A stretch of DNA of 64,000 nucleotides from Variovorax atrisoli 110B (GTDB taxonomy: Bacteria; Pseudomonadota; Gammaproteobacteria; Burkholderiales; Burkholderiaceae_C): positions 1-64,000 of the forward strand of contig NZ_KB907463.1 in the NCBI RefSeq assembly GCF_000382045.1, in the 5' to 3' direction. The position numbers and the translations under genes are program-made. Positions 10,928 through 27,601 of the stretch are shown here, in pieces; position 1 is the stretch's first letter, and the number at the start of each line of letters is the position of its first letter. Under the pieces are notes generated by a model that worked only from the letters and a program-made list of their open reading frames with translations, had not been told where the DNA came from and made no database searches.

Positions 10928-11902
10928 TCAGTCCAGCTTGATTCCTGCCTGCTTGATGATCGGGCCCCAGCGCTTCGACTCGGCGCGCGACAGCGCCGCG
11001 AACTGGGCCGGCGTGCCCGGCATCGCCTCCATGCCGAAGTCGTCGAAGCGCTTCTGCACGGCCGGCGTGCCGAAGGCCTTGTTCAGGTCGCCGTTGAGCT
11101 TGCTGACCACCGCCGCCGGCAGGTTGGCCGGGCCCAGGATGCCCTGGAACGCGAACACCTCCGTGTTGGGCACGCCCACCTCGGCCAGCGTCGGCACGTT
11201 GGGCAGCGGCTTGCTGCGCGCGCCCGAGCCGATGGCCAGCACGCGCACCTTGTTGGTCTGCATGATCGGCAGGCCCGAGGCCAGGTCGAGGAACATGCAG
11301 GGCACCTGGCCGCCCATCACGTCGGCCATGGCCGGCGCGGCGCCGCGGTACGGGATGTGGGTGATGAAGGTGCCGGTGCGCACCTTGAACATCTCCATGG
11401 CCAGGTGGTGCGGCGAGCCGTTGCCCGGCGAGGCGTAGTTGACCTTGCCGGGGTTGGCCTTCACGTAGGCGAGGAACTCCTTGAAGTCCTTCGCAGGGAA
11501 GTCGGGATGCACCACCAGGGCCAGCGGGAACTTGCCGATGGCGCCGATGTAGGTGAAGTCTTTCTCGGGGCTGAAGGGCAGCTTGCTGAACAGGTGCTCG
11601 TTGAAGGCCAGCACCGCGTTGTCGGCCGACAGGATCGTGCAGCCGTCGGGCTTGCTCTTGGCGACGATGTCGGCGCCGATGTTGGTCGAGGCGCCGGGGC
11701 GGTTGTCCACCACGATCTGCTGGCCCAGCGTCTGGCGCATCGCCTCGGCCAGCACGCGCGCGATCACGTCGGTGCCGCCGCCCGCCGGATAGGGCACGAC
11801 CCACTTGATGAGCTGTGCGGGGTACTCCTGCGCGCGGGCGAAGGGCGATGCGGCCATTGCGGCGCCGGAGGCGAGCGTGGCGAGAAGGGTGCGGCGATCC
11901 AT
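10928..11902 (-). CDS. Bug-family tripartite tricarboxylate transporter receptor
   Basis: 324 residues with a Tat-like or Sec signal (MDRRTLLATLASGAAMAAS, cleavage near ARA). The family hallmarks are present: IKWVVPYPAGGGTD near the N terminus, VVDNRPGAS, and THIPYRGAAPAMADVMGGQ. Bug (TctC) proteins are periplasmic solute receptors, very expanded in Burkholderiales, binding carboxylates or aromatic acids. No TctA/TctB membrane genes are nearby, which is common for orphan Bug proteins. It lies 46 bp after the DUF2783 gene and, with the FAD monooxygenase, forms a three-gene minus-strand run, so the ligand is probably the monooxygenase substrate or a relative. Confidence 0.9.
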   Translation of the reverse strand: MDRRTLLATLASGAAMAASPFARAQEYPAQLIKWVVPYPAGGGTDVIARVLAEAMRQTLGQQIVVDNRPGASTNIGADIVAKSKPDGCTILSADNAVLAFNEHLFSKLPFSPEKDFTYIGAIGKFPLALVVHPDFPAKDFKEFLAYVKANPGKVNYASPGNGSPHHLAMEMFKVRTGTFITHIPYRGAAPAMADVMGGQVPCMFLDLASGLPIMQTNKVRVLAIGSGARSKPLPNVPTLAEVGVPNTEVFAFQGILGPANLPAAVVSKLNGDLNKAFGTPAVQKRFDDFGMEAMPGTPAQFAALSRAESKRWGPIIKQAGIKLD

Positions 11903-19812: not shown

Positions 19813-19830
19813 GCCGAGCTGAAAAGAAAA

Positions 19831-19861
19831 ACGCCGCCGGCCCGAAGGCCCGCGGCGTTTT
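19831..19861. terminator. Bidirectional terminator between convergent genes
   Basis: The stem ACGCCGCCGGCC / GGCCCGCGGCGT has one mismatch, loop CGAA, and is flanked by A-rich sequence on the left and TTTT on the right. It therefore has a T-tract on both strands. It separates the ChaN gene from the leftward giant repeat-protein gene. Confidence 0.85.
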
Positions 19862-19885
19862 CTGTCGCCCTGGGAACGGCGCAGC

Positions 19886-22800
19886 TCAGCGTGAGCTGAT
19901 CGTCGAGACCGCCGAATTGCCCGTCGCCGAGGCGGTGATCTGGTTGCCGGTGGTGCGCAGCGTGCTGTTGCCCACCGGGCCGGAGATGCCGACGCCGAAG
20001 TTCACGCTGGTCACCGTGGCCGTCACCGCGCCGGTGTTGACCTGGTAGTTGCCGATGGCGGCGCTCGGCGCACCGGTGTTCAGCGCCGTCTGCGTCACGC
20101 GGTTGGTCGCGCTGTTGCCGAAGGCCTGCGCGGCCAGCGTGTTGCCGGTGACGCCGGCCGTGCTGTTCGGCACGCCCCCGACGGTGCCGTTGAGCGCCAC
20201 CTGGTAGCTGGTGCCCGTGCTGGCGGCCGTCACCGTGCCCGCGTTGTTCTGGCTGTTGAGGATCGCAGCGCTCGCGCCGACATTCAGCGCCAGCGGAGCG
20301 CCGACCAGGCTCGACGTGCCCGCCGCGGCCGCGCCGCCGTAGCTGCTGCCCGCGCCCGATTCCAGCACGTTGGTCGCCGCGTTGCCGCGCGCCAGCGCCG
20401 CCGTGGTGTTGCCGTCGAGCGAGACGCTGCTGCCGTTGAGCGGCATCACGCCCGACAGCGTGGCGTTGGCCACCGTGTTCGACGTCGCCGTCACGCCCGC
20501 GGTGCTGCCCTGCACGTTGAGGATGCCGGCGCTCGCGCCCTGCGTGGCGCTGCTCGCAACGGTGGCCGTGTTGGTCGCGCGATTGGCGGTCGCTTCGGCG
20601 AAGGTGCTGTTGCCCGAGATCGTGAGCGCGCCGTTGGCCAGCGTGGTCGTGGGCGCGGCGTTGTCGTCGTTGTGGATCGAGGTGGCGGCCGTGCTGCTCA
20701 CGGTCGATGCGGCTGTCTGGCGGTTCGACAGCACATGGTCGCCGCTGGCCGTGATGTTGCCGGAGCCGCCGATCTCGCCGAGCGTCGCCGAGCCCGTAGC
20801 GCCCGCCGGCTGGGTGTTGACCGCGCTCACGCTCAGCGTGTTGGCCGCGTCGTTCATCACGCCCAGCGCGGCGTTGCCGTTGCCCGAGAGCCGCACGGTC
20901 GAGCCGGTGGAGCCGGCCGGCGCGAAGACCTCGAGCGTGGACGAGGCAGTCACCGCCGCGGTGCCCGACTGGCTCGACTGCAGCGCACTGCGCGCGCCCA
21001 CGTTCGAGCCCGCCAGCGTCACGCTGTTGAGCGCGGTGTTGCCCACGGCCTTGGCGCTCTGGCTGTTGTTCGTCACGCCGAGCGTCGAGGCATTGACGCT
21101 GGACAGCGGCGCGGAGTCGATGCCGATGCTGCCGGTGGCGGTGGCCGACACCGCACCGGCGCCGACCTGCACGTTGGCCAGCGCATGGTCGGCCGAGGCC
21201 GCCACGGACGAAGCCGTCCCGCCGGTGGCGGTCGCCGATGCCGGCAGCCCTCCGACGATGGCGCCGCCCTTCACGTCGATGCTGTTGGTCGCGGCGCTGC
21301 CGGTGGCTGCGGCGGTGGTGACGTTGCCGTCCAGCGTGGCGCTGCTGCCGGCCAGCGCGGTCGGCCCGGTCAGTGTGAGCCTGGTCGCGTTGTTGGCATT
21401 GGCGGTCACGGCCGCGCTGCTGTCCTGCGCGTTCAGCACCGCAGTCTTGGCCGACTGCGATGCGCCGCCGGCCAGCGAGGCTGCGTTGGTCGCGCGGTTG
21501 GCCGCCGCTTCCGAATACGTGGTGTTGCCCGAAGCGGTGAAGCTGCTGCTGGCCAGGCCTGCGTTGCCGAGCACCAGGCGGTCCTCGTTGTAGATCGCGG
21601 TGTCGGCGGTGCTGGTGACCGAAGCGCCGGCCGATTGGCGGTTCACCAGGACCTGGTCGCCCGCCGCGATGGTGTTGCCCGGCAGCGGTCCCTGGCCGAT
21701 GAGCGCCGGCGCCGGCAGCGCGCTCGACGTACCACCCGCGACGCCGAGCTTGTTGTCCACGTCGTTGATCACGCCCAGCGCCGTGTTGGCGTTGTTCGAC
21801 AGCTTCACCGAAGAGCCCGACACCGAGGCCGGCGCGAAGGCCTGCATGAAGGAGCGCGCCTCCAGCGCCGCCGCGCTGCCCTGCGAGGACATCAGCGCGG
21901 AACGGGCCGACACGTCGGTGGCCGCGAGCGCGATGGCGTTGCTGCCGGTGTTGGCGACGGCCTTCGCGCTCTGCGTGTTGTTCGAAGCGCTCAGCGTCGA
22001 ACCCGCGATGACCGCACCCGGCGCCGTGTCCACGCCGAAGGCTGCCGCCACCTTGGAAGAGATGGTCGGGCTGGTCACCAGCTGGATGTTCGAGAGCGCA
22101 TGGTCGGCCACCGCGCCCGCAATACCCCCGACGCTGGTCGCGCCGGCCAGCGGCAGTCCGTTGGCCAGGGCGATGGTGTTGCCCTTCACGTCGATGCGGT
22201 TGGCCGCGGCGTTGCCGGTGGCAGAGCCGCCGGCGGAGTTGCCGTCCACCGTGACCTGCGAGCCCACGATGCTCGCGCCGCCCAGCACGACCTGCACGCC
22301 GTCCTTGTTGGTCAGCAGCGCGCCTTCCTGGCCGGTGAGCGAGCTCACTGCCGCGCTGGTCAGCTGCAGGTTCTGCACCGCAGTGGTGGTGGCGACGCCG
22401 ACAGCATCGACGGCCACGCCGCTGTTCGCGCTGTTGCTGGTCGCACCGGCCAGCGTCGCGTTGCCAGTGGCATCGATCCTGGAATTGCCGACCGCGCCGC
22501 CGACCGAGATGTTGACCTCGGGCCCGCCGCTGCGCTGCGCCGATACGGAGCCCTGGCCCGACTGCGCGTTCTGCACGCTGAAGGCCGCGTTGGTGGCGAG
22601 CGTGTTGCCGGTGAGCGTCGCGCCCGACAGCGACAAGCCGGAGGTGTCGATGTTGTTGCCCGTCACCTTCACCGTGTTGCCGGTGGCGCGGCTGCCGTAG
22701 GCCAGCGCCTCGGCCGTGTTGCCCGAGCTGGTGACCGAGCCGTCGGCCAGCGTGCCCGTGACCGTGTTGCGCGCCACGACGCCGCCGGCCGCGATGGCCG

Positions 22801-25213
22801 AGACGCCGGTGCCCGCGCCCGCCACCGCCTGCGTGTTGGTGACGTTGGCCACCGAGGCATTCGCGCCGCTGACGTTGTTGAGGTTCAGCGTCACGCCGCT
22901 GGCCGCGTCGTTGCCGTAGGCCGCGGCGACGAAGGCGTTGCCGCTGTTCGCCACGCTCGCGGCGGAGACGTTGCCGGCCACCGCGGCCGCAAAGGTGTTG
23001 GGCCCGGCGGCTGTGGAATCGACGTTCGCCTGCACCGACTGGTCGTTCAGCACGCCGTAGGCGGCGCTCACCGTCGGCAGCGCGCCGGCCGCGTTGCTGA
23101 AGGGCAGACCGCTGAGCGCATCGACGGTGACGCTGGATGCCGGCGTGATGCCCAGGCCGGGCGCAGCCGCCACGTTGCCCGCGTTCACGCCGAGGGTGTT
23201 GGTGGCCGAGTTGCCGTAGGAGATGGCACGCTGCAGGTTGTCGGTGAGCGAGGCCGAGCCGCCCGCGAGGTTGCCGTTCACCGTCAGCCGCGCCTCGGGG
23301 TTCGAGAGCCCCGCGCCGACGGCGGAGTTCGCGTCGTTCATCTGCACGCTCGCGATGCCCGCGCCAGTGCCCACCGAGTTGCCCGAGAGCGTGAGCGTGT
23401 TGGTGGCGCCGTTGCCCAGCGCCACGGCTTCCTGCCGGTTGCCGTCCAGCGACAGCGTGCTGTTGCCCACCGCCGCACCGCCGCCGTTGGCGGTCAGCCA
23501 GATCTGCGAGCCGATGTTCACGGCCGCGACGCCACCGATGCCGCCTGCATAGTTGCCCTGCAGGTTGGTGAGCGTGGCCGAGCCGCTGGCGGACACGCGT
23601 CCGTCGGAGTTGGTGCCGCCCGTGAGCGTGGCGTTGCCGGTTCCCAGCGCCACCGTGCCGGCCTGCAGCGCGAGGCTCTGGGTGATCTGGTTGCCCTGCG
23701 CGCTGGCCGCCGAGGTGTTGTCGGAAACACTGACCGAGCTGCCCGTGGTCTGGCCCGTGCCGGGCGACTCACCCGTCTGCGCCGCGATGACCGAAGGCAG
23801 CAGCAGCGCGCTGACCGGTGCATTCAAGTTGGCCTGCTGGTTCGACACCGCGGTGGTGCCGGTGAATGAGGCCGCGTTCTTTCCGGTGGCGATGCTGCTG
23901 GAGGCCGTGTTGCCGGCGACGGTGGCCGTGATGCTGTTGTCCGCCAGCGTGACCGCGCTGTTCTTGCTCGACTGCACGCCGGCCAGGATCTGCGCACCCA
24001 TGGTCTGCGCCACGGTCGTCACGCCGAGGTTGCCCTGGCTGTTGACGATGGCCAGGTCGCTGTTGACGTTGCTGGTCACGCCCGCGCCGTTGTGGATGCT
24101 GTTGTTGGCCGCCGTGGCCGCGGTGCCGCTGCCCGCGACGCTCACGTCGTCGACCACGATGCGGTTGCCCGCCACGCCGGCCGTGGCGCCCAGCGCCTCG
24201 TTGCCCGTGGCCGCGCTGGAGATCGCGTTGCCCTGCACCGACAGCGACCCCTGCAGCACGTTCGAGCCGCCCGCGGGCGCGCCGCTGACGATGCCCAAGA
24301 CCACCGAGCCGATGTTGGTGGCCGAGCGTGTAGCCAGGATGCCGTTGCCGTTCGCCTGCAGGTTCGCGACCACCGCCGAGCCGGCGAAGGTCGGCGCGCC
24401 GCCCGACTGGATCTCGGCCGTGCTGCTGGCGCTGTTGGCCTTGAGCACGGCGGAGATCGAATTGCGCTCCAGCGACGCGGTGGTGGTCAGCGTGTTGCCC
24501 GCGTTCGCGGTCAACATCAGGTCGACCGTGTTGCCCAGCACCGTCGCGCTGGAGCCCGTGCCGGTGGCCGACTGCAGCGAGGTGACGACGATGTTGCCCT
24601 TGGCGTCGAAGAGCGGCGCACCCGCCGGGTAGGTCAGCACCGAGGTGCCGGCCTGCGCCGGCGCGGCGACGGCCGCCGCGCCCGAGATCACCGAGCTGCC
24701 GCTGTTGAGCGTGGTCGTGGCCGAGATGGTGTTGTCTGCGTTCACCACGCTGCCCGACTGCAGCGTGCTTGACTCGGAGGCCAGCTTGCTGCCGGTCACG
24801 CTGCTGCCGATGACGCCGGTGTTGGTCGCCACGCCGAGCGTGGCCGCGTTGTTCACCGGCAGGCCGGGTGCGGCCTGGATGCCGTTGCCGAAGCTGTTGC
24901 CGGTGGCGGTCGCGCCGATCAGGTTGCCGCTGGTGCTCACCGCCACCGGGTTCGGATTCGACGGCGTGCCGGTGGAGGTCGTGCCCACCGTAGCGCCGGT
25001 GATGGTGGCATTGACGTTGGCCGAGTTGGTGGTGCCCGCATTCACCGAGGGCGTGCCGGTGGCGGTGCCGTTGTAGGCGGCGTCCACCGAAGTCTCCGCG
25101 GCCTGCGCGCCGGAGGCCGCGGCGATCAGCGCCATCGCGACTGCGGTGCCGATGCTGCTGCGGCTGAACATGGGCGCGCGTGCGGCCCGGCTCTGGATCT
25201 TGCGTGCTTTCAT
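19886..25213 (-). CDS. Giant secreted repeat protein, HfaD/curli-like matrix or anchor candidate
   Basis: 1775 residues from the ATG at 25213, preceded by GAGGAG 7 bp upstream. A long signal peptide (GTAVAMALIAAASGAQA) is cleaved near residue 40. The mature chain is dominated by Ala, Gly, Ser, Thr, Asn and Val; I saw no cysteine and one tryptophan. Two short motifs alternate through it: type A xNxQxxxxxVxA (LNVQGSTAGVTA, LNSQNNAGTVTA, NYQVNTGAVTA) and type B xGNxxxAxAxGNxAxN (DGNTTAALARGNAATN, TGNTLAAQAFGNSATN). A 306-residue unit is tandemly duplicated at about 20400-22250. The end lacks a beta-barrel, so it is not an autotransporter. It follows a CsgG/HfaB-type gene and a small secreted-protein gene. 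Export by that protein and assembly as a beta-solenoid or amyloid-like surface layer is inference. Confidence 0.75.
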   Translation of the reverse strand: MKARKIQSRAARAPMFSRSSIGTAVAMALIAAASGAQAAETSVDAAYNGTATGTPSVNAGTTNSANVNATITGATVGTTSTGTPSNPNPVAVSTSGNLIGATATGNSFGNGIQAAPGLPVNNAATLGVATNTGVIGSSVTGSKLASESSTLQSGSVVNADNTISATTTLNSGSSVISGAAAVAAPAQAGTSVLTYPAGAPLFDAKGNIVVTSLQSATGTGSSATVLGNTVDLMLTANAGNTLTTTASLERNSISAVLKANSASSTAEIQSGGAPTFAGSAVVANLQANGNGILATRSATNIGSVVLGIVSGAPAGGSNVLQGSLSVQGNAISSAATGNEALGATAGVAGNRIVVDDVSVAGSGTAATAANNSIHNGAGVTSNVNSDLAIVNSQGNLGVTTVAQTMGAQILAGVQSSKNSAVTLADNSITATVAGNTASSSIATGKNAASFTGTTAVSNQQANLNAPVSALLLPSVIAAQTGESPGTGQTTGSSVSVSDNTSAASAQGNQITQSLALQAGTVALGTGNATLTGGTNSDGRVSASGSATLTNLQGNYAGGIGGVAAVNIGSQIWLTANGGGAAVGNSTLSLDGNRQEAVALGNGATNTLTLSGNSVGTGAGIASVQMNDANSAVGAGLSNPEARLTVNGNLAGGSASLTDNLQRAISYGNSATNTLGVNAGNVAAAPGLGITPASSVTVDALSGLPFSNAAGALPTVSAAYGVLNDQSVQANVDSTAAGPNTFAAAVAGNVSAASVANSGNAFVAAAYGNDAASGVTLNLNNVSGANASVANVTNTQAVAGAGTGVSAIAAGGVVARNTVTGTLADGSVTSSGNTAEALAYGSRATGNTVKVTGNNIDTSGLSLSGATLTGNTLATNAAFSVQNAQSGQGSVSAQRSGGPEVNISVGGAVGNSRIDATGNATLAGATSNSANSGVAVDAVGVATTTAVQNLQLTSAAVSSLTGQEGALLTNKDGVQVVLGGASIVGSQVTVDGNSAGGSATGNAAANRIDVKGNTIALANGLPLAGATSVGGIAGAVADHALSNIQLVTSPTISSKVAAAFGVDTAPGAVIAGSTLSASNNTQSAKAVANTGSNAIALAATDVSARSALMSSQGSAAALEARSFMQAFAPASVSGSSVKLSNNANTALGVINDVDNKLGVAGGTSSALPAPALIGQGPLPGNTIAAGDQVLVNRQSAGASVTSTADTAIYNEDRLVLGNAGLASSSFTASGNTTYSEAAANRATNAASLAGGASQSAKTAVLNAQDSSAAVTANANNATRLTLTGPTALAGSSATLDGNVTTAAATGSAATNSIDVKGGAIVGGLPASATATGGTASSVAASADHALANVQVGAGAVSATATGSIGIDSAPLSSVNASTLGVTNNSQSAKAVGNTALNSVTLAGSNVGARSALQSSQSGTAAVTASSTLEVFAPAGSTGSTVRLSGNGNAALGVMNDAANTLSVSAVNTQPAGATGSATLGEIGGSGNITASGDHVLSNRQTAASTVSSTAATSIHNDDNAAPTTTLANGALTISGNSTFAEATANRATNTATVASSATQGASAGILNVQGSTAGVTATSNTVANATLSGVMPLNGSSVSLDGNTTAALARGNAATNVLESGAGSSYGGAAAAGTSSLVGAPLALNVGASAAILNSQNNAGTVTAASTGTSYQVALNGTVGGVPNSTAGVTGNTLAAQAFGNSATNRVTQTALNTGAPSAAIGNYQVNTGAVTATVTSVNFGVGISGPVGNSTLRTTGNQITASATGNSAVSTISSR

Positions 25214-25293
25214 GTCGTGACTCCTCGGATGTTGGATGCGTCTGGCTTGGAAAACGGGTGGATGCGCGATGCGTGGATCGCGCCGGGAGCCGG

Positions 25294-26727
25294 TCAGTCG
25301 CCCTTGACGGCGCCGTCGGCAGAAGAAGAAGCGGAAGAAGCTGAAGGGGACGAAGGCGCTGCGCCGCCGACGACCGGGCTGCCGATGCGCAGCTTGGCGA
25401 TCTCCTGCAGGCCCGGGCCGTCGCGGTGGATCGAGGTGTCGGCCGCGTCGGGCCGCCAGGTGATGCTGATCGCGCCGGGCGCCACGCCGCGATTGGCCAG
25501 CGCCGAGGTGACGGCCGCGATGCGCTGGTCGGTGAGCTCGTCGCGCTTGCGGGCGTCCCAGTTCTCGGTGTCGCGCGCCACCAGCACGATGTCGGTCGTG
25601 CCCTTCTTGGCAGCGCCGGCGATCTGGTCGATGAGCGCGAGCGAGCTGCCGCCCAGCGTGGTCGCGCCGAAGTCGAAGGGCACCTGCGTCGCCGTGCCCG
25701 TGAGGCGCGCACCGCCCGCACCGCCCGCACCGCCGGCATTGACCGCCACGCTGCCCTGCGCCACCGGCGAGGTGACGGCCGCGCCGCCCGTCGCGGCATC
25801 GCCCGGGTTGTCGACCTTGCGCAGCTCTGCCGCGGGCGTGAGCGGAATGGGCTCGCCGCCTCCGGGGCGCATCGTCATGCAGGGCCGGTGGTCGACCTGC
25901 GTGACGGCGGCCATGAGGCGCACCACGCCCTCTTCCAATGCGGCGCGCACACCCATCTGCACGGGCTCCTGCCCCTTGGCGCCGATGTCGACGTCGTACA
26001 GCTTGCTGCCGAAGAAGCGGAACACGTTCAGCCCCACTTCGTAGCCGTTGAACTGCTTGGTGAGGCTCACGGTGCGCACCACCATCAGCGACTTGGTGTC
26101 GACGATGCGCAGGTCGATGCTCACCGACTGGCTGAAGGTGCGCGCCTTCACGCCCACCTGGTTCACGCCGAACTCCGCGCCGCCGGAGTTGATGTTGTAG
26201 TTGAGCTCGGTGATGCCGCCCACGATGAAGTAGTCGGACTTGTTGATGGTGCCGCCGAAGTACGGCAGCCACGGCACGTTCTGCCCGCCGTTGGGTCCGC
26301 CGAGCTGGTGCGTGCGGCCGTCGCCGAGCTGGCGCCGGTCGGCGTACGCGAGCTCGCGCTCTGCGATCACCGGGTCGAAGCGCTCGGCGATGCTCACCGC
26401 GCCGCCGAGCTTGCCGAGCGCCGAATACACCATCAGCGCGCCACCCTGCGTGATGGCGTTGCCTTCGTTGATGCTGTACTTGCCGGTGTAGTCCTTCACG
26501 TCGCCCACGCCGATGATCACCGGCGGGCGCCGCGTGGCGGCGATGTGGTCGGCGTAGCAGGCGAGCACCGCCTCCATCGGCGTGACGTTGTCGCGCACCG
26601 AGGGCCCGAGCACCACCGGAGCCTCGTTCGGTGCGAAGCGCTGCTGCGGCGCGGAGACGCAGCCCGCGAGCGCCAGCGTGGCGACGGCTGCTGCAAGAAC
26701 GAATGCGCGGCGGATGCGATGCTGCAT
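25294..26727 (-). CDS. CsgG/HfaB-type outer-membrane secretion lipoprotein
   Basis: 477 residues. Signal and lipobox VATLALAGC make it a lipoprotein. The CsgG-like domain (about 50-300) shows PPVIIGVGDVKDYTGKY, ITQGGALMVYSALGKLG, SDYFIVGGITELNYNINSG and FSQSVSIDLRIVDT, with the FFGSKLYDVDIG segment after it. These resemble HfaB of Caulobacter holdfast anchoring and CsgG, the nonameric curli export channel. A C-terminal extension beyond the CsgG core (about 345-460) reads VPFDFGATTLGGSSLALIDQ and RDELTDQRIAAVTSALANRG, an OmpA/MotB-like arrangement that could bind peptidoglycan. It begins 13 bp after the small secreted protein gene and ends 80 bp before the giant gene. Role as the export pore for both is inferred from the family. 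Confidence 0.85.
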   Translation of the reverse strand: MQHRIRRAFVLAAAVATLALAGCVSAPQQRFAPNEAPVVLGPSVRDNVTPMEAVLACYADHIAATRRPPVIIGVGDVKDYTGKYSINEGNAITQGGALMVYSALGKLGGAVSIAERFDPVIAERELAYADRRQLGDGRTHQLGGPNGGQNVPWLPYFGGTINKSDYFIVGGITELNYNINSGGAEFGVNQVGVKARTFSQSVSIDLRIVDTKSLMVVRTVSLTKQFNGYEVGLNVFRFFGSKLYDVDIGAKGQEPVQMGVRAALEEGVVRLMAAVTQVDHRPCMTMRPGGGEPIPLTPAAELRKVDNPGDAATGGAAVTSPVAQGSVAVNAGGAGGAGGARLTGTATQVPFDFGATTLGGSSLALIDQIAGAAKKGTTDIVLVARDTENWDARKRDELTDQRIAAVTSALANRGVAPGAISITWRPDAADTSIHRDGPGLQEIAKLRIGSPVVGGAAPSSPSASSASSSADGAVKGD

Positions 26728-26740
26728 GACTCGCTCCCGC

Positions 26741-27259
26741 TCAGTTGAGCACGCCGAAGGCGCAGGCCGAGCTGCCGCCCACGCTCGCGGTCTGCGCACC
26801 GGTGTTGCCCTGCGCCGAGTTCAGCGCCTGGTTGGCCGCGCCCTGCACCTGCGAGCTGGTGCCGCCGACGATGCCCGATGCGACCGCGCCCGAATTGGCC
26901 TGCGAGGTGCCCACCGTCGCACCGCCCAGCGTGCCTACCGCGGTGCGGCTGTCGTTGCCCGATGCGTTCGATGTGGCGCCTGCCGTGCTCGGCGAATTCG
27001 CGACCGTGCTGTTGTTGCCGTCGTTGCCGGTGGAGCTGGCCGAGACGTTGCAGTTGTACTGGCGGCCGATGTAGTTGTTCGTGTTGTAGACCGGTGCCGA
27101 GTAGTAGCCGCTCTTCTGCTTGCGGATCATGTCCTGGATCGCGGCCTGGTTGACCTTGTCGGTGCTGGTCTGGAATTGCCATGCGGCGTTCTCGCCGACG
27201 TTGTTGGCGTGCGCAGCCAGAGGCACGCACAGCAGTGCCCAAAGAAATACGCGTTGCAT
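26741..27259 (-). CDS. Small secreted protein, HfaA-like, first gene of the surface-protein operon
   Basis: 172 residues with a signal peptide (MQRVFLWALLCVPLAAHA). The mature N terminus, NNVGENAAWQFQTSTDKVNQ, continues AAIQDMIRKQKSGYY, and resembles the leader region of holdfast protein HfaA as I remember it. From about residue 65 the chain turns Ser/Thr/Asn/Gly/Ala-rich (STGNDGNNSTVANSPSTAG, GTSQANSGAVASG, QALNSAQGNTGAQTASVGG) in the style of the giant protein. Two cysteines, YNC and SAC, could form one disulphide. It heads the operon and has a ribosome site AAAAGGGA. The likely role is a minor subunit, nucleator or adaptor of the surface structure; this is inferred from gene order with the HfaB-type gene. 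Confidence 0.65.
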   Translation of the reverse strand: MQRVFLWALLCVPLAAHANNVGENAAWQFQTSTDKVNQAAIQDMIRKQKSGYYSAPVYNTNNYIGRQYNCNVSASSTGNDGNNSTVANSPSTAGATSNASGNDSRTAVGTLGGATVGTSQANSGAVASGIVGGTSSQVQGAANQALNSAQGNTGAQTASVGGSSACAFGVLN

Positions 27260-27481: not shown

Positions 27482-27601
27482 CTAGTCGCCGAACCAGAGC
27501 AGCAGCCAGACGCTGACCGAACCGAGAACCACCGTCATCAGCACGACCTCCCCGGTCGTGGGCAACGGCCTGTCCATCCAGCGTTCGATGTTTTTCGACA
27601 T
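27482..27601 (-). CDS. 39-residue single-pass membrane microprotein
   Basis: The reading frame runs from ATG at 27601 to TAG at 27482 and encodes MSKNIERWMDRPLPTTG, then a hydrophobic helix VVLMTVVLGSVSVWLLLWFG ending in Asp. A strong ribosome site GGGGGACGAGG directly precedes the ATG. A -35-like TTGACA (plus 27655-27660) lies about 54 bp upstream, but its -10 is weak. The sequence is charged then hydrophobic, so the N terminus should stay in the cytoplasm. It lies 222 bp upstream of the surface-protein operon on the same strand. I do not recognise a family. A role in that system or as an independent membrane peptide is open. Confidence 0.55.
   Translation of the reverse strand: MSKNIERWMDRPLPTTGEVVLMTVVLGSVSVWLLLWFGD

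Follow-up and report, generated by a model that had tools for sequence, protein, structure and literature searches.

What is exported through a CsgG-type channel whose gene is followed by a gene for a repeat protein of 1775 residues? The question is raised by a 64,000-nucleotide stretch of Variovorax atrisoli 110B (contig NZ_KB907463.1, positions 1 to 64,000; hereafter the window). Three genes lie there on the minus strand: an hfaA-like gene (27259–26741; 172 residues, with a signal peptide and Q-x-N-x-G repeats), an hfaB-like gene for a CsgG/HfaB-type lipoprotein (26727–25294; 477 residues; hereafter the channel), and a gene for a secreted repeat protein (25213–19886; 1775 residues; hereafter the giant). 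They are separated by 13 and 80 bp, and the coordinates, strand, and sizes given in the original prediction, which was made from the sequence of the window, are confirmed. The signal peptides of the first and third proteins and the lipobox of the second were judged by eye. The operon, which also occurs in other proteobacteria, probably makes one very long, stiff, ladder-like surface protein. The answer we favor, and consider reasonably probable, is export of a very large HfaD-like β-solenoid, as a surface fiber or adhesin, through a CsgG-family channel that often bears an OmpA-like tail.

The gene order recurs beyond the window. A scan of named genomes with five channel sequences, which relies on two short peptide patterns and is thus limited to fairly close relatives, returned 74 loci. 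In 73 of them, an HfaA-like gene sits next to the channel gene (weakest E value 1.2e-18, in L190), and L192 has no HfaA-like gene at E<0.01. Three or more giant units occur in one open reading frame (ORF) at 62 of the 74 loci; among the other 12, 11 contigs end no more than 1,020 bases past the channel gene, and the twelfth locus (L181) is in a fragmentary bin with 2,390 bases left. The ratio of nonsynonymous to synonymous substitution rates (dN/dS), calculated against five relatives, including one with the second operon type described below, is 0.00–0.50 for the HfaA-like gene, 0.07–0.29 for the channel gene, and 0.24–0.65 for the giant gene, the fastest-evolving of the three. All three genes are under purifying selection. 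Because the gene order recurs in the scanned loci and dN/dS is low in all three frames, the operon is more than a chance arrangement, and the three-gene set is a coherent, patchy family. A promoter and terminator scan gave nothing above shuffles.

The CsgG domain of the channel is certain. PF03783 matches residues 69–283 (26523–25879, minus strand) with 65.5 bits (Pfam; cut-off 20.8), the genome search finds it in the same place, and the five PDB sequences matched by the lipoprotein are all CsgG (E about 6e-8). The NCBIfam HfaB model NF037935 scores 194.5 bits (E 1.9e-57), which does not reach its curated cut-off of 300; in the genome search, both HfaB-like copies of the genome stay under this cut-off (197.1 and 196.2 bits). 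The CsgG and HfaB models both match 45 of 45 scanned members (E≤0.01), and the lipobox cysteine C23 is invariant in the 45-row alignment. The original prediction had assigned the lipoprotein to the CsgG/HfaB type on account of the FIVGGITELNYN stretch. The stretch is present and the assignment holds, with the HfaB score below 300; a profile search without similarity to CsgG/HfaB was to speak against the prediction, and the similarity was found.

Behind the CsgG domain, most members carry a tail resembling an OmpA domain, which in the window is a weak match to PF00691 (residues 351–425; 25677–25453, minus strand). The match reaches E≤0.01 in 11 of 45 members (best 1.3e-9). Tail residue D386 is kept in 71% and R402 in 87% of the 45 rows, and by eye both line up with what we take to be the wall-binding Asp and Arg of OmpA. 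Residues C57 and C283 of the channel are invariant in the same alignment, as are C70 and C166 of the HfaA-like protein in 61 aligned rows; each pair may form a disulfide. Two more proteins of the genome have a weak CsgG match in Pfam, at about 25 bits (L006 5424–6248 and L007 5104–6003). They are alike by eye and make up a separate CsgG-fold family.

The giant is built from some 22 repeat units, each about 68 or 87 residues long. No Pfam model matches it at E≤1, and NCBIfam returns only one unrelated model (E 0.12; 11 bits, cut-off 300). In an alignment of giants from 42 of the 74 loci plus the window, the last 500 residues show Gln and Asn columns that are regularly spaced and invariant in all 43 sequences, from alpha- and betaproteobacteria, and the Gln-to-Gln distances alternate between 66–69 and 84–87 residues. 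Single-residue autocorrelation is less clear than the invariant columns. A unit profile, built from the same giants so that its matches in giants are partly by construction, finds 20 units in the window giant at an independent E value below 0.01 (residues 62–1773; 25030–19895, minus strand), 24 pieces, two of them short, at a loose threshold, and 12–29 units in each of 38 giants of 1002–2792 residues (longest ORFs). HfaD, HfaA, and curli-type proteins were not among the input of the profile.

An AlphaFold2 model of the C-terminal 500 residues (21388–19889, minus strand), computed from the 43 sequences, has a mean predicted local distance difference test score (pLDDT) of 90.4 and a predicted template modeling score of 0.90. 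It contains strands and no helix, and the five models lie within 2 pLDDT points. The original prediction had staked itself on a β-solenoid or amyloid-like fold, and a confident all-β repeat is what AlphaFold2 gives for these residues. The structural neighbors of the model are β-helices, SufB/SufD first (Z 12.8 over 195 residues, root-mean-square deviation (rmsd) 3.3), with CsgA of Pontibacter korlensis (8c50) in sixth place (Z 9.3 over 152 residues, rmsd 8.4); the structural aligner considers only candidates from Foldseek itself. The curlin repeat has 23 ± 5 residues, and CsgA homologs reach 62 repeats, according to the available part of PMC10192328. The short giant unit of 66–69 residues is three times that length, and probably holds three curli-sized rungs. 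If all units stack, the giant would be roughly 30 nm long.

The repeats of the giant may also connect it to HfaD. The unit profile was applied to HfaD after the whole-profile comparisons, and gave the clearer outcome. For 9 of 11 classical HfaD proteins, none of 300 shuffles reaches the summed profile score; for the remaining two, 1 and 4 of 300 shuffles score as high. Reversed HfaD sequences score lower in 11 of 11 cases (0–4.8 versus 6.4–41.5 forward). The score also exceeds all 300 shuffles in the HfaA-like protein of the window, and no shuffle is as high in the HfaA-like proteins of L187 and L177; in two true HfaA proteins it is reached by 4 and 3 of 300. We consider the giant a probable expanded relative of HfaD, a relationship that the profile scores support and do not prove. 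The original prediction had set the giant apart from the known HfaD. The difference in length stands, and the implied lack of relationship probably does not, as the unit profile scores HfaD above shuffles.

We also scored the proteins beside the HfaB-like genes of L107, L108, L109, and L113 with the unit profile. For the 584-residue protein of L108, 0 of 300 shuffles are as high; the 159-residue protein of L108 (300 of 300) and the 156-residue protein of L107 (81 of 300) are at chance. In L107, L108, and L109, which come from other alphaproteobacteria, an HfaB-like gene (171–179 bits) is accompanied by repeat proteins of 251–584 residues and, by eye, by response-regulator-like genes nearby. 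This arrangement is possibly yet another variant.

For the HfaA-like protein, neither Pfam nor NCBIfam returns a model at E≤1. Compared with four true HfaA proteins, its family aligns over 17 columns around NSxQxNxG with 82% probability (E 1e-5; reversed control, E 0.23).

Several results weigh against the favored reading. In the channel, the PF00691 match of the window is 19.3 bits, below the cut-off of 27.2, and the tail is absent in 6 of 45 rows (L184, L187, L188, L190, L191, and L192); the L106 channel also lacks it, and the tail of L166 looks garbled. The structure prediction of the HfaA-like protein, from an alignment of 60 of 73 loci (near-copies thinned) plus the window, is uninformative (pLDDT 47). 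The relationship with HfaD is less distinct in other comparisons: hhalign of HfaD against the giant gives a probability of 3% (P 0.014; reversed control 0.46), whole-profile hmmsearch with shuffles on 14 HfaD-model matches is mixed, and the other direction, with eight giants, is mostly at chance. The C-terminal giant profile in the HfaD comparison was made without L149, L150, and L151, whose C-termini differ. Three weaker HfaD-model matches are reached by 21, 4, and 6 of 300 shuffles in the unit-profile comparison, and five of the 11 classical HfaD proteins come from one genus and two from another. No CsgE or CsgF is found in the genome that would explain how a chain of 1775 residues is kept unfolded. 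As for the fold, the model covers the last 500 of 1775 residues, Foldseek finds no match to it in the PDB at E≤0.001, the rmsd of the CsgA match is high, and a Z below about 13 may, by the notes of the aligner, reflect a mere common arrangement in repeats.

AlphaFold2 readily builds solenoids from repeats. This tendency could mean that the solenoid is a modeling artifact, and that the giant is largely a disordered surface coat or S-layer-like protein, in keeping with its low-complexity composition (60–80% of the residues are A, G, S, T, N, or V in giants complete at the C-terminus) and its rate of evolution, the highest in the operon. However, the Gln and Asn columns that stay invariant and regularly spaced across alpha- and betaproteobacteria argue against it, as do the high pLDDT and close agreement of the five models. 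We regard disorder as very improbable.

Could the operon be a true HfaABD holdfast anchor? In that case, it would tie polysaccharide to the outer membrane, and the giant would be an enlarged, sugar-gripping HfaD. The gene order is the same, the HfaB profile scores 194.5 bits, and the repeats of the giant are similar to those of HfaD and HfaA. In Caulobacter, according to the available part of PMC6707917, surface localization of HfaA and HfaD requires HfaB, their presumed pore, and deletion of HfaA or HfaD loosens the holdfast. However, the curated models for HfaA (NF037934, cut-off 50 bits) and HfaD (NF037936, cut-off 100 bits) have no match in the genome (the Caulobacter controls matched), and HfaB stays below its cut-off. 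In a tree of 45 channel rows, L106, and four HfaB rows, which covers part of the 74 loci, the channel family forms one clade against the HfaB rows (100/100), with long branches between. None of the six neighboring genes given to Pfam is a polysaccharide gene; the rest of the genome was not searched for holdfast synthesis genes. A holdfast anchor is an unlikely explanation.

A curli-like amyloid system, in which the giant would be a many-repeat curlin that polymerizes, is less likely still. It would account for the CsgG channel and for an all-β model with CsgA among its structural neighbors, and curlins with up to 62 repeats are known from the available part of PMC10192328. However, CsgE (PF10627) and CsgF (PF10614) have no match in the genome (the E. 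coli control matched), and no Pfam family, curlin repeats included, is found at E≤1 in either secreted protein. In addition, the unit profile scores three curli-type proteins, so labeled by eye from sequence and neighbors, no higher than shuffles (93, 115, and 300 of 300 as high). A holdfast- or curli-like system had been proposed in the original prediction. Because the defining models fail or stay below threshold, we grant the operon membership in neither the HfaABD nor the curli systems; it would function as a blend of the Hfa anchor and curli.

We return to the favored reading, an operon that would encode a CsgG-family system dedicated to exporting a single giant substrate across the outer membrane. 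Sec would take all three proteins across the inner membrane, and the lipoprotein would go on to the outer membrane. There it is predicted, with support from its family, to form the pore, tied to the cell wall by the OmpA-like tail in most members. By analogy with Caulobacter, the channel would export both the HfaA-like protein and the giant. The giant would be threaded out unfolded and would fold outside into a flat β-solenoid of about 22 units, one chain making one short curli-like fiber. The HfaA-like protein, with its similar repeat motif, may cap, nucleate, or anchor the giant at the pore. Export of the operon products, their amyloid nature, and adhesion by them are putative, and a role in attachment is plausible.

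The family spans several proteobacterial groups. The Burkholderiales-side loci come from Variovorax, Xenophilus, Polaromonas, Ramlibacter, Hydrogenophaga, Limnohabitans, Caenimonas, and Alcaligenaceae; the sphingomonad and other alphaproteobacterial loci come from Novosphingobium, Sphingobium, Sphingomonas, Croceicoccus, and Sphingosinicella, and from Aureimonas. The metagenome bins among the 74 loci include two Caulobacteraceae, one labeled gammaproteobacterial, and one labeled deltaproteobacterial. The original prediction saw a system of a betaproteobacterial, non-Caulobacter lineage; the host is indeed a betaproteobacterium (Variovorax, by its nearest named relatives), and a patchy family takes the place of a lineage-specific one. 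Two loci carry additional ORFs with giant units downstream of their first giant: L164 (16223–21305; Allopusillimonas) has two, of which the second is truncated at the locus end, and L151 (16615–21033; Sphingosinicella bin) has one.

Within the genus, the channel core is found at E≤0.001 in 22 of 101 sampled genomes (all counts include that of the window), and one of them (G203) is 99% identical over the core. In the family it is found in 5 of 150 genomes, three of these being weak matches of 28–31% identity. Across the class, 13 of 369 genomes have an HfaB-model match, and none passes the cut-off; across the phylum the figure is 52 of 398, and 11 of these pass it. Many of the weak hits probably represent CsgG. 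In one-clade tests run after the tree had been seen, a single clade of the 20 betaproteobacterial rows is rejected (approximately unbiased test, p 0.0007), and a single clade of the 21 sphingomonad-type and other alphaproteobacterial rows is not (p 0.17). The beta rows are not one clade and the alpha rows possibly are; therefore, transfer of the operon between alpha- and betaproteobacteria is likely. A broader proposal we make tentatively, with more doubt than confidence: the family may be a third CsgG-family export class, next to curli and the holdfast anchor, in which a wall-tied pore secretes a ready-made, single-polypeptide β-solenoid fiber of genetically fixed length and not a polymer of small subunits, and which has spread horizontally between sphingomonads and Burkholderiales.

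The same genome carries a second operon on contig C11 (L005 1701–12665), with a channel 86% identical over the core and a giant of 1574 residues. A genome search with the giant alignment finds places only in the two giants. Just upstream of the second operon are an EAL-domain gene (131 bits) and a gene for 93 residues, and Crp-type regulator genes are downstream. The operon may be under the control of these flanking EAL and Crp-type genes. Among 11 other fetched regions of the second type, 7 show (by eye) comparable EAL-like and small genes upstream. The metal-binding motifs of the EAL gene look degenerate by eye against what we take to be the consensus; because of this, its product would more likely be a sensor of cyclic dimeric GMP than an enzyme.

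The first operon lies between aptA and chaN. By eye, all 17 fetched regions of this type have aptA upstream, and 16 of them have chaN downstream; in the seventeenth, the contig stops within the giant. We compared the aptA–chaN spacing in 16 fetched genomes of the genus without the first operon. The two genes are within 60 bases in 12 of them and within 290 in L222. In L223 (G168), ogt stands between aptA and chaN, with the ends of ogt and chaN about 40–50 bases apart; this is a clean empty site. In L216 and L217, about 1.7–1.8 kb of other ORFs lie between the two genes. L216 (G171) also retains a start piece of an HfaA-like gene between chaN and aptA (11493–11573), likely a deletion scar. At the borders of the operon in the window, two features were noted. 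An inverted repeat followed by a T run (19826–19871), absent from the listing of the terminator scan, lies 3′ of the giant gene and by eye is a possible terminator shared with the convergent chaN gene. A 39-codon ORF (27482–27601, minus strand), by eye a small membrane-like protein, lies between ogt and the operon.

Small amyloid subunits are the cargo for which CsgG-type channels are known. A channel paired with one repeat protein of 1000–2800 residues would test how long a chain such channels can thread, whether the length of a fiber can be encoded in a gene, and whether a shared kind of repeat links holdfast anchors to curli. The operon points to a surface structure of plant-, soil-, and water-associated bacteria, for two components of which, the first and third proteins, Pfam and NCBIfam offer no matching model. 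The CsgG family has already been noted as wider than curli (PMC3521004, available part), and "holdfast attachment protein HfaA" and "CsgG/holdfast attachment protein HfaB" occur as annotation names (PMC10128055, available part). In the open PubMed Central literature, to which this search was confined (subscription papers and preprints being outside it), no title or abstract among the matches listed describes the operon.

Compared with HfaA-HfaB-HfaD of Caulobacter crescentus, the operon has the same succession of a small repeat protein, a CsgG/HfaB-type channel, and a larger repeat protein, and the unit profile finds the Q-x-N-x-G and A-x-G-N repeats similar. It differs in failing the curated HfaA and HfaD models and scoring below the HfaB threshold, in the length of the third protein (1002–2792 residues in 38 giants versus 409–487 in the 11 classical HfaD ORFs), and in the OmpA-like tail that many members carry on the channel. 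With curli, it shares the CsgG channel and strand-turn repeats marked by Asn and Gln, with rungs predicted at about 23 residues; unlike curli, it has no CsgE, CsgF, or Pfam curlin match, shows a different repeat signature, and has one giant chain in place of many small subunits. The many-repeat CsgA homologs (up to 62 repeats) carry the curlin motif and mostly come from curli operons, according to the available part of PMC10192328, whereas the giant is without the motif; what the two have in common is that each is predicted to form a very long, single-chain solenoid.

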